Shown here: positions 10,820-19,649 of the stretch, one piece after another | Layout: every line of letters starts with the position of its first letter | Numbering within the stretch: position 1 is the first letter of the stretch | NCBI GenBank assembly: GCA_944392325.1 | Contig: CALXWI010000010.1 | Location: 1 to 37,864, forward strand | DNA length: 37,864 nucleotides | Source: an uncultured Alphaproteobacteria bacterium | GTDB lineage: Bacteria > Pseudomonadota > Alphaproteobacteria > RF32 > CAG-239 | Direction: 5' to 3' | Program-made: the position numbers and the translations under genes | The notes under the pieces: model-generated | What the model was told of the DNA's origin: nothing | The model's database searches: none | Seen by the model: only the letters and a program-made list of their open reading frames with translations

Positions 10820-11569
10820 TTAACGATAAATTATCGGTAAAGCATAATATTTATCCCGATAACTTCCACCATGACTTTCCCCCACTTCACCACTACTCAG
10901 ACTTACAATATATGTATAATAGGCGCTTGTTAACGGACTTTTGGTTGACGTCCAAAACCACCCACCGGACAACTCTTTACCTCCATAAGTTATCAAAAGG
11001 TTATTCAACGCTACTTTATTATCATAAACCGTAAGCACGCTGTCTTTTCCGGGATAAGTACCCTTTTTACCGTCACAAAATAAGTAATTCTCACATTCAT
11101 ATTTGGCATTATCTCTTCTCATTGTCCCCAAATCCCCCATCGCTATATAAAAATTCATATCCGACGTTTTTACGCCTACGACTTTGCCATTACACTTATA
11201 CACATTTCCATCCGGACCTGTTAAAATTTCTTTCTGGCACCTCTCTTTATCCCACTTATAACCTAAAGAACAAATACAAGCCGCATACTTACCATTACAA
11301 TCCTTTCCTGACCCTCCGGTATATCCCTCACCTAAACAATCAAATTTAAAACCAAGTTCCGGACAAAGAGTTTCTTTAATCTCCTCTTCAGTTTCAAAAC
11401 AACACCACTTATTTCCAAACGGACATTTTACCCCTTTGCCACCGTTGCACGATGTTTCTGTGTATCCTAAAGTCGCGCAGTCTTGGGTAGCCACACATTG
11501 TGCCGCGCTTAAATCCGGAATTAAGGACAACGAAGCCCCCAAAAATAAAAATATTTTATTATTGCTCAT
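10820..11569 (-). CDS. Secreted cysteine-rich protein with DUF1566-like C terminus (A)
   Basis: A 249-residue exported protein with a signal peptide of about 22 residues (IFLFLGASLSLIPDLSA). A Cys-rich head (DCATLGYTETSC, GGKGVKCPFG) follows, then one 45-residue Cys module (CPELGFKFDCLGEGYTGG, CNGKY, CICSLGYKW, C), then a domain ending in GGWFWTSTKSPLTSAYY and LPIIYR. That tail resembles Lcl/DUF1566 C termini (pattern GWFWTST then RPV). There is no lipobox, so probably not a lipoprotein. I start at ATG 11569, which has AAGGA 9-10 bases upstream. The in-frame extension to 11683 would translate the leader RNA terminator and is rejected. It is a paralogue of 18600-19649, with the same start context. 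Function unknown; surface adhesion or binding is a guess. Confidence 0.8.
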   Translation of the reverse strand: MSNNKIFLFLGASLSLIPDLSAAQCVATQDCATLGYTETSCNGGKGVKCPFGNKWCCFETEEEIKETLCPELGFKFDCLGEGYTGGSGKDCNGKYAACICSLGYKWDKERCQKEILTGPDGNVYKCNGKVVGVKTSDMNFYIAMGDLGTMRRDNAKYECENYLFCDGKKGTYPGKDSVLTVYDNKVALNNLLITYGGKELSGGWFWTSTKSPLTSAYYTYIVSLSSGEVGESHGGSYRDKYYALPIIYR

Positions 11570-11597
11570 CACACACATCCTTCTTTTTTTATTAGTT

Positions 11598-11829
11598 AAA
11601 AGAAAAAGCCCGCACCGGTTAACCAGAGGCGCGAGCAGGATGTTGAGAAGCTGTATTGGAATAAACAACTCCGGTATATTCATTCCATAACCGAAGCTAT
11701 AAAACTTATTAGACCGGCATCCTGCCGCATAAAGCAGAAGCCAGCATTTAATTTTTTTTCAGTCGTGACGCTAACACGACTATTCCAATAAAGGGTTCTC
11801 ACACCCTGGTTGGCCTATACTAACCAACT
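11598..11829 (-). ncRNA. Structured leader RNA A (pseudoknot, five helices, terminator)
   Basis: Read on the minus strand from a start near 11829. P0: GTTGG/CCAAC (11828-11824 with 11813-11809). P1: AGGGT/ACCCT (11807-11803 with 11796-11792), with loop gugaga. P2, long range, 10 bp: 11790-11781 with 11663-11654. P3: AGTCGTG/CACGACT, loop uuagcgu (11781-11761). P4: GCTGGC/GCCGGT (11745-11740 with 11718-11713) around CTGC/GCAG. P5: 9 bp, 11698-11690 with 11675-11667. A pseudoknot pairs the P1 loop TGAGAA (11801-11796) with TTCTCA (11649-11644). A 9-bp terminator stem (11636-11628 with 11616-11608) and T tract follow, ending about 30 nt before the start codon. Every helix has a counterpart in leader B with different bases. 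I recognise no known family. Confidence 0.78.
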
Positions 11830-11835
11830 AAAAAC

Positions 11836-18324: not shown

Positions 18325-18353
18325 TTGATTTTTAACCTTTGCTATGCTACACT
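18325..18353 (+). promoter_or_regulatory. Promoter of leader RNA B
   Basis: TTGATT (18325-18330), 17-bp spacer, TACACT (18348-18353). This is the same -35 and spacing as the leader A promoter. Predicted start near 18360. Confidence 0.65.
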
Positions 18354-18359
18354 TGATCT

Positions 18360-18571
18360 TAGCGGACAAAGTCTGTCTGTTAGGGTTTGCAAGCCCTTTA
18401 TAATCGGGTCGTTTTAGCATAGCGACTTTAAACTAATATGCTGGCATTTGCATATTCATCATATGCGGGTGCCGGCGGTTAATAAGGCTCTGCACGAAAG
18501 CGTCGGGGCTGTTCGATTATACAGTCTTGCAACACCCGCTCCTCTAGAATTTAAAGAGGGGCGTTCTTTTT
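18360..18571 (+). ncRNA. Structured leader RNA B (pseudoknot, five helices, terminator)
   Basis: P0: CGGACA/TGTCTG (18363-18368 with 18374-18379). P1: AGGG/CCCT (18382-18385 with 18394-18397). P2, long range: TATAATCG/CGATTATA (18399-18406 with 18514-18521), extended by two G-U pairs. P3: GTCGTT/AGCGAC, loop uuagcau (18408-18426). P4: GCTGGCA/TGCCGGC (18440-18446 with 18470-18476) around GCATAT/ATATGC. P5: GCTCTG/CGGGGC (18487-18492 with 18504-18509) around ACG/CGT. The pseudoknot pairs the P1 loop TTGCAA (18387-18392) with 18527-18532. Terminator stem GCTCCTCT/AGAGGGGC (18538-18545 with 18555-18562), then a T tract to 18571. The gene start is at 18600. Conserved unpaired pieces shared with leader A: TTAGC(A/G)T loop, TAATAAG between P4 and P5, and CAACA before the terminator. 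Confidence 0.78.
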
Positions 18572-18599
18572 AACCCATAGAAAAGATAAGGTGTGTGTG

Positions 18600-19649
18600 A
18601 TGACTAATACTAAACTATTTTTACTTATCGGGACTTCTCTGTCCTTTTTACCTCAAACATTGAACGCTCAATGTGTATCTCCGATTCAAGATTGTTATGC
18701 TCTGGGCTATACCCAAACCTCTTGCCCCAATGGCAAAGGAGTCAAGTGCCCTTTCGGCTCGGGCTGGTATTGCGGCGGCACGGCGGCACAAGATTGCATT
18801 AAGCTAGGGTACGACAAAGACTGTACCGGCACCGAAGAAAGCGGTAATGGTGAAACTTGCAACGGCAAATACCAATCCTGTAATTGTGCAACAAATTATA
18901 CCTGGAACGGGAGCAGCTGTACCCTTTCTTGTTCATCTTCCTATAAATATACCTGTACCGGAACAGGATACAACGGCGGCAAAGGAACAGCTTGCGGCGG
19001 AAAATATACGTCCTGCACATGCTCAAACGGCTATGAATGGAAAAGCGGAAAGTGCCAACAAAAAGCGCCGGATTATTCTCTCTGCAAAATCGGAACTCTG
19101 TTTTATTCTGACGAAACCTGTTCTGATGATAAACTCAGCAATAAAACTTTGCTCGGGGTCGTCGTCTATGAAAAAACAGACAGTGAAAACGGCTGGGTCA
19201 TGACAATTAACCCGATTGCCACAAATATTGCATGGTCTACAGAATATACAACAACAGGAGTCACAGACAAAACAGCCGGTGCCAGCTGCACAAATACAGC
19301 AACATTAGCCGCCAAAGGAAACAAATACCCGGCAGCCACAAAAGCCGACAATTATAATTTTGGAGGCAAAAAATGGTGCCTGCCGTCATATGATGTTTTA
19401 AATAAGATTAACAACGCAATAAATTTAACTAAAGTAAATACAGGCATTACCACAGCCGGAGGAAAACCTTTGGGAAAGGGTGCATATACAGCAGGCAGTT
19501 ATTCAGAAAAAATTTGGTTATCATGTGAACATTATAGCAACAATGCATGGAATTTTTTCAACACAGAAAATGACTTCTTCGGTATAACCAGTGATGATAA
19601 AAGTGATGCATCCGCCACAAATACCGTTCGTCCGGTATTCGCTTTTTAA
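18600..19649 (+). CDS. Secreted cysteine-rich protein with DUF1566-like C terminus (B)
   Basis: A 349-residue exported protein: signal peptide (LFLLIGTSLSFLPQTLNA), Cys-rich head (DCYALGYTQTSC, KGVKCPFGSGWYC), two 45-residue Cys modules (CIKLGYDKDCTGT to NGSSC, and CSSSYKYTCTGTGYNGG to KSGKC), then a C-terminal domain. The latter has GWVMTINPIATNIAWS, KKWCLPSYDVLNKI, IWLSCEHYSNNAW and NTVRPVFAF, the Lcl/DUF1566 layout (W-LPS, W-S, VRPV). Compared with protein A it has one more Cys module and a different C-terminal subtype. Start ATG 18600 follows AAGG and GTGTGTG; the GTG at 18591 is less likely. Function unknown; many such domains are surface binding modules. Confidence 0.8.
   Translation: MTNTKLFLLIGTSLSFLPQTLNAQCVSPIQDCYALGYTQTSCPNGKGVKCPFGSGWYCGGTAAQDCIKLGYDKDCTGTEESGNGETCNGKYQSCNCATNYTWNGSSCTLSCSSSYKYTCTGTGYNGGKGTACGGKYTSCTCSNGYEWKSGKCQQKAPDYSLCKIGTLFYSDETCSDDKLSNKTLLGVVVYEKTDSENGWVMTINPIATNIAWSTEYTTTGVTDKTAGASCTNTATLAAKGNKYPAATKADNYNFGGKKWCLPSYDVLNKINNAINLTKVNTGITTAGGKPLGKGAYTAGSYSEKIWLSCEHYSNNAWNFFNTENDFFGITSDDKSDASATNTVRPVFAF

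Follow-up and report, generated by a model that had tools for sequence, protein, structure and literature searches.

Leaders of surface-protein genes in an uncultured alphaproteobacterium as a probable branch of the C4/sRNA-Xcc1 antisense RNA type

What kind of RNA stands ahead of two paralogous surface-protein genes and keeps one fold while most of its bases differ? The question is raised by a 37,864-nucleotide stretch of DNA from an uncultured alphaproteobacterium (assembly GCA_944392325.1, contig CALXWI010000010.1, positions 1 to 37,864; hereafter the window), which carries leader A on its minus strand and leader B on its plus strand. An earlier note, made from the letters alone, had proposed a pseudoknotted fold held by compensatory changes and could not assign it to a known RNA. 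Our comparisons suggest that each leader is probably a self-contained antisense translational switch of the C4/sRNA-Xcc1 type, placed ahead of its own surface-protein gene. We judge the window leaders to be homologous, via intermediate relatives, to the C4 and sRNA-Xcc1 antisense RNAs (Rfam RF01695 and RF02221), among which these leaders would form a large and apparently undescribed alphaproteobacterial branch; literature searches of only partial coverage found no description of it.

In the window's own genome (G000; 1.53 Mb in 83 contigs, 91% complete; L-numbers below denote loci and other G-numbers the genomes of relatives) BLASTN detects about 25 copies, and R1, a covariance model built from 23 copies, finds 31 full leaders, A and B among them; R2 is a second such model. 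Nearly all copies have a similar promoter upstream and are followed by a terminator-like hairpin, a Shine-Dalgarno (SD) region and a gene for a secreted Cys-rich protein. A covariance-model search had been proposed in the earlier note, and it brought up what was hoped for: more copies, with covarying pairs, upstream of similar proteins. The parts of the two leaders are listed here, with x and y for the 5′ strands of two long-range helices, x′ and y′ for their 3′ complements, and anti-SD for the strand complementary to the SD.

18325–18348, plus strand: putative promoter of leader B, −35 TTGATT (18325–18330) and −10 TATGCT (18343–18348), recognised in the sequence by consensus match only and kept in nearly all paralogues.
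18360–18540, plus strand: RNA core of leader B, P1a to P8 (R1 191.5 bits, R2 123.5 bits).
18387–18393, plus strand: x strand TTGCAAG of leader B, in the loop of hairpin P1b (AGGG/CCCT, 18382–18397); pairs with 18526–18532, by covariation.
18399–18406, plus strand: y strand TATAATCG of leader B; pairs with 18514–18521, by covariation.
18408–18442, plus strand: hairpin P5 (GTCG/CGAC) of leader B with P9, an H-type pseudoknot of the AGCATA loop (18416–18421) with TATGCT (18437–18442); covarying variants.
18441–18475, plus strand: long hairpin P4 of leader B, whose 3′ strand GCGGGTG (18465–18471) doubles as the 5′ strand of P8, the C4-type closing stem.
18488–18508, plus strand: hairpin P6 of leader B, from covariation analysis of 23 copies.
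18509–18524, plus strand: hairpin P7 (CTGT/ACAG) of leader B with y′ CGATTATA (18514–18521) as its loop, by covariation; the last hairpin of RF02221.
18526–18532, plus strand: x′ CTTGCAA of leader B, paired with x by covariation.
18531–18539, plus strand: anti-SD AACACC (18531–18536) of leader B, overlapping the P8 3′ strand CACCCGC (18533–18539); family-wide covariation with the SD and the P4 3′ strand.
18537–18571, plus strand: terminator-like hairpin CGCTCCTCT/AGAGGGGCG of leader B with a U tract, from sequence and fold.
18588–18595, plus strand: SD region AAGGTGTG of leader B, complement of the anti-SD.
18600–19649, plus strand: gene B, predicted to be regulated, for a secreted Cys-rich protein with a C-terminal C-type-lectin-like region (weak Pfam Lcl_C match on a paralogue).
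11635–11830, minus strand: core of leader A, with P8 GCAGGATG/CATCCTGC (R1 95.5 bits, R2 73.6 bits).
11796–11801 and 11644–11649, minus strand: x TGAGAA and x′ TTCTCA of leader A.
11781–11790 and 11654–11663, minus strand: y TATTGGAATA and y′ TATTCCAATA of leader A.
11638–11644, minus strand: anti-SD AACATCC of leader A.
11574–11582, minus strand: SD region AAGGATGTG of leader A, complement of AACATCC.
10820–11569, minus strand: gene A, predicted to be regulated; a paralogue of gene B.

Read 5′ to 3′, a leader runs P1a, P1b with x in its loop, y, P5 with P9, the long P4, P6, P7 with y′ in its loop, x′, AACACC or AACATCC, a hairpin with a U tract, and the SD. All base pairs quoted for A and B in the earlier note lie where it put them, both the pairing of the P1 loop with a 3′ strand (x/x′, TTGCAAG/CTTGCAA in B and TGAGAA/TTCTCA in A) and the long-range helix it called P2 (y/y′, TATAATCG/CGATTATA in B and TATTGGAATA/TATTCCAATA in A). 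Its pseudoknotted fold stands in that pseudoknots form with P1b, P7 and P9, with the correction that x/x′ is nested with y/y′, giving one interrupted long-range helix. Two pieces it had taken for unpaired are engaged: within TTAGC(A/G)T, AGCATA pairs with TATGCT just before P4 to make P9, an H-type pseudoknot with an A-rich linker (GCAC/GTGC, GGTA/TACC and ACATAA/TTATGT in other copies), and CAACA falls in AACACC/AACATCC, complementary to the SD region and to the P4 3′ strand.

Across the 23 own-genome copies, standard pairs reach 91.5% in the true register vs. 35–42% when all partners are slid by 1–3 columns, and double-changed cells number 169 vs. 19–38, which bears out the covariation that the earlier note expected of a wider alignment. 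The five core pairs of x/x′ hold 59 double-changed cells with 0 one-sided and 0 broken; y/y′ holds 56 with 1 one-sided, its broken cells lying partly at alignment gaps. G–U pairs are many in P1a and P4 and almost absent from x/y. Leaders B and A are also far more stable than their dinucleotide shuffles (z = −6.4 and −5.9, respectively). Judged from sequence, these patterns strongly support leaders that are functional RNA kept by compensatory changes. Two sequences alone were thin evidence for that claim; 30-plus copies settle the question.

The RNA could be placed only by way of relatives. Rfam searches with the window leaders return nothing at gathering score and only chance matches at E up to 10, and no family model of a known riboswitch, transfer-messenger RNA, 6S or RNase P matches them, so for these sequences the earlier note was right to leave the RNA unassigned. 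Relatives' leaders, however, match RF02221 and RF01695 in register. L315 scores 51.7 bits against RF02221 (cut-off 53, E 1.2e-8), in register with the R2 match there (51.5 bits), and L316, L314 and L317 score 40.6, 34.4 and 32.2 bits; RF01695 matches a leader of G060 in register (29.5 bits, E 1e-3) and has no match in G000. BLASTN of L315 against plasmids found nothing. RF02221 gives nine matches in G000, five of them in register on R1 leaders (the best own-genome leader at 37.3 bits). The other four are compact leaders (L356–L359, on C45, C19, C14 and C3), which carry x, y, a C4-type fold, y′, x′, the anti-SD AGCTCC and the SD GGAGCT and are without P5 and P4. Three of these compact leaders stand ahead of members of the same surface-gene family, which in this genome would therefore be controlled by leaders of two architectures.

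Features of the known families recur in these leaders. The three stems of RF02221 correspond to P8, P6 and P7, which are present and complementary, x′ precedes the closing 3′ strand, and the alignment of L316 is in register. Upstream complements x and y occur in the window copies and in RF02221 loci of other Pseudomonadota, and the C4-like antisense pairing with the SD region is predicted here from covarying anti-SD/SD classes. Sampled RF02221/C4 loci of other Pseudomonadota carry 5′ x and y, antisense y′ and x′, and a downstream ribosome-binding site (RBS), very often with x–SD–y at the next gene, which is often phage-antirepressor-like (translations judged by eye); this plan matches the published C4 plan (summarised in PMC5320573). 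RF02221 loci including L321, L326, L328, L329 and L344 precede antirepressor-like genes of BRO-N, KilA-N and Rha types, and the code frequently recurs around the SD. The RF02221 model seems to cover no more than a portion of a cis switch.

A ligand-sensing riboswitch was our working idea and was dropped on the match of L315 to RF02221. It would make the P5/P9 pseudoknot and the AATAAG junction an aptamer, x/y mere stems of irrelevant sequence, and P8 vs. the terminator or SD the expression platform, and it would suit the highly conserved core, the several pseudoknots and the overlap of P8 with terminator and SD. What makes it unlikely is the homology to antisense RNAs, together with mixed downstream genes that offer no common metabolite (lipoproteins, autotransporters, outer-membrane proteins, pilin-like proteins and XRE regulators) and a compact form in the same genome that lacks P5 and P4 and keeps x, y and the anti-SD.

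The link to the downstream gene lies in the motif AACNNCC, which can pair with the P4 3′ strand (as P8) or with the SD, and all three elements covary. AACATCC goes with GGATGTT in 67 copies and AACACCC with GGGTGTT in 19, and the classes AACTTCC:GGAAGTT and AACTCCC:GGAGTT also occur. SD matches of at least 7 are found in 104/173 cognate vs. 393/2375 non-cognate cases. The base after GGATGTT tracks x (45% vs. 26% under within-group permutation), and the six-base match has P ≤ 0.023 in each of five groups. We read these patterns as an RBS copy of the code that has shrunk, in the window branch, to an anti-SD/SD pairing covarying across the family.

This covariation is sensible only in RNA, and it argues against a DNA-level site, attC-like or otherwise recombinational, that folds as single-stranded DNA. 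Such a site would account for inverted repeats with a variable centre, and sRNA-Xcc1 does occur in Xanthomonas integron cassettes (PMC12444791). G–U pairs are common in P1a and P4, and promoter and gene order are conserved, both of which speak against the DNA-level explanation and leave it hardly tenable. The GTT/AAC ends of the leaders are presumably also oriented differently from those of attC, which was dropped as a candidate on the RNA-type covariation with the SD. An IS110 bridge RNA was dropped as well, the guides pairing with each other within one RNA.

In the antisense switch that we favor, the 5′ part would bear x and y, and the 3′ C4-like domain their complements, with y′ in a hairpin loop, x′ adjoining it, and then the anti-SD. 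In a silent form the 5′ x–y would clamp x′–y′, and the anti-SD would cover the SD below the terminator-like hairpin. In an open form P8 would close the C4 domain, take up the anti-SD and free the SD. We infer the direction of the switch, that is, which form is silent and which is open.

Why should the switch helices differ from copy to copy? We take x/x′ and y/y′ to be a paralogue-specific, strictly Watson–Crick code of nearly constant stability, not ordinary variable stems. Their complementarity is intact in nearly every intact copy while the sequences change from one copy to the next, and type-III copies diverge at 2.5–4% of interior sites vs. 53–59% of y′ and ∼39% of x′. Across four many-copy genomes, 87/88 copies carry distinct (x,y) codes, and the cognate is the best partner in 88/88. 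Cognate pairing there amounts to −19 to −20 kcal/mol vs. −6.5 to −8 for non-cognate pairs (−19.7 ± 1.4 vs. −8.1 in G000 alone), and only 13/1958 non-cognate pairs come within 3 kcal/mol. Composition is just as narrow: the y 7-mer has exactly 3 G/C in 14/17 distinct type-I codes and exactly 2 in 9/10 type-II and 15/19 type-III codes, with a G/C-count variance of 0.1–0.4 vs. 1.2–1.4 after column shuffling, and all seven type-I x codes have 3 G/C, a constraint that stem P1a does not share. This narrow GC count and free energy would also suit an RNA thermometer, in which all leaders would share one melting point because x and y hardly vary in stability; a thermometer leaves the distinct codes, the C4 homology and the conserved core unexplained, and we consider it very improbable.

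Interrupted copies provide a natural negative control: complementarity is lost in G007 copies with an inserted element resembling a miniature inverted-repeat transposable element (MITE) and in G006 copies whose 3′ part is replaced by a promoter module. The MITE-like element has terminal repeats AGACCTAAAATATCCCCTTACAG and sits at the same site in P7 of five G007 leaders (L153, L154, L155, L157 and L159); in at least L155 and L157 the gene is then preceded by an additional promoter and a strong SD. The G006 replacement, (near-)identical in L106, L108, L109 and L110, runs from the P4 3′ strand on, supplies a new promoter and SD for the surface-protein gene, and apparently spread by gene conversion. 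Other irregular loci include L061 (C5:19098–19291 of G000), which combines a 5′ half bearing an x and y of its own with a 3′ half identical to leader A, with the result that neither helix can form; it is either a recent chimera or an assembly artefact. In L084 (G010) an element that is IS110-like by translated sequence lies within x′, and at L083:1256–1399 a second, weaker leader-model match, from a tandem or decayed leader, lies ∼100 nt upstream of a full copy.

The main rival to a private code is neutral change, in which the stems x and y are free to vary as long as their stability is kept, and gene conversion homogenises the rest of the leader. Exchange between copies (the L061 chimera, the spread of the promoter module) is what this explanation expects. 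It has more difficulty with the divergence of y′ and x′ relative to the interior of type-III copies, since pairing and a fixed GC count should slow drift, and with x being more varied in many-copy genomes and more uniform in the sampled low-copy ones. We give neutral change an appreciable, if minority, chance. Orthologous loci of G000 and G006 mostly have different codes, so locus-specific ages are not traceable.

Several observations weigh against our interpretation. Codes from one genome differ from each other no more than codes from different genomes do, as neutral change would have it, and active avoidance is thus not proven. The window leaders fall under the Rfam cut-offs for RF02221 (53 bits) and RF01695 (45 bits), and the second target copy of C4, a2/b2 around the RBS, is not found in the window branch; we therefore treat these leaders as a new variant and not as members. 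A copy of y near the RBS was sought in the window branch and none rose above the permuted level, the match being confined to the SD plus about one base of x, so code targeting in trans is not supported there. Finally, P4 is so stable that the P8 form might be reached only after processing or on a trigger. C4 antisense RNA is processed by RNase P to a ∼77-nt RNA.

The most natural reason for private codes, we infer, would be the avoidance of cross-pairing among ∼30 paralogous RNAs: RNAs that shared a code would interfere with one another, by misfolding together or by silencing, following the logic of phage heteroimmunity and plasmid incompatibility, and distinct codes would allow separate control of ∼30 surface-protein genes per cell. 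Taken furthest, this suggests a cell-wide system in which each of ∼30 paralogous surface-protein genes, several of them of the type diversified by diversity-generating retroelements (DGRs), is locked by its own C4-type RNA, with a two-helix code under diversifying selection at constant binding energy, locks that do not cross-react, and genes expressed one by one. We put this forward tentatively, as a possibility that falls somewhat short of an even chance.

R2 matches 131/153 genomes of the order, 26/385 genomes drawn from the class, and 2/398 genomes drawn from the phylum, namely G000 and G219, which both fall in that class (E-values of R1 and R2 are rough). A pattern scan of named genomes, biased toward the pattern, gave >100 loci; of those listed, nearly all lie in metagenome-assembled genomes (MAGs) titled uncultured Alphaproteobacteria or Proteobacteria, many of them animal-gut. 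MAG assemblies may hold chimeras, L061 perhaps among them. In low-copy genomes the downstream genes, judged by eye from translations, include many lipoproteins, autotransporters, outer-membrane beta-barrel and pilin-like proteins, as well as some XRE regulators and others.

Proteins downstream of the leaders (genes A and B; paralogues in L034–L062 and L163) belong to a large secreted Cys-rich family with a C-terminal C-type-lectin-like region, ..WSST..VRPVLxSW, and by sequence they look like DGR targets. Relatives carry one reverse transcriptase each, reading GLPIGNLTSQ in L280 and L282, with an Avd-like gene in L280; no DGR reverse transcriptase was found in the window's own genome. A direct DGR–leader link was dropped, the variable helices being without obvious adenine mutagenesis (by eye) and G000 without a reverse transcriptase.

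If our placement is right, C4 and sRNA-Xcc1, which Rfam keeps as separate families, are joined through it to a large chromosomal branch unlisted in Rfam; sRNA-Xcc1 would then seem to belong to a cis switch acting on the gene that follows, and not only to be a free trans-acting small RNA (sRNA). Dozens of natural antisense pairs of near-equal strength and rare cross-reaction would allow direct tests of the divergence of antisense specificities and could serve RNA engineering. A layer of control over large surface-protein repertoires is also indicated for uncultured Alphaproteobacteria of the gut.

Three known systems invite comparison. With sRNA-Xcc1, found in Xanthomonas and others, the leaders share a 3′ domain of closing stem (P8), middle stem, last hairpin with y′, x′ and closing strand, as well as upstream x and y and a position upstream of a gene. 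The RF02221 model, however, spans the 87-nt 3′ domain only, the literature describes a trans-acting sRNA, and in many members further copies of x and y flank the SD of the following gene, a repetition that the window leaders lack. Extra to the window leaders are P1a, P5/P9, a P4 hairpin in competition with P8, and a terminator-like hairpin ahead of the SD. With C4 of phages P1 and P7, listed as RF01695 together with the c4-a1b1 motif by Weinberg et al. in 2010 (PMC2864571), they share a1/b1 upstream, a′/b′ in the antisense RNA, an RBS target and sequence-defined specificity. C4 controls phage antirepressor operons through a2/b2 around the RBS, whereas the window branch is chromosomal and many-copied, precedes surface-protein genes and has an anti-SD in place of a full a2/b2. 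The Group 1 sRNAs of Acinetobacter baumannii likewise comprise many C4-like RNAs per genome with a varying specificity loop, and are reported as free sRNAs with targets unknown (PMC5320573). In the window branch, by contrast, each copy retains a 5′ complement of its own and is placed in cis, ahead of a surface-protein gene.
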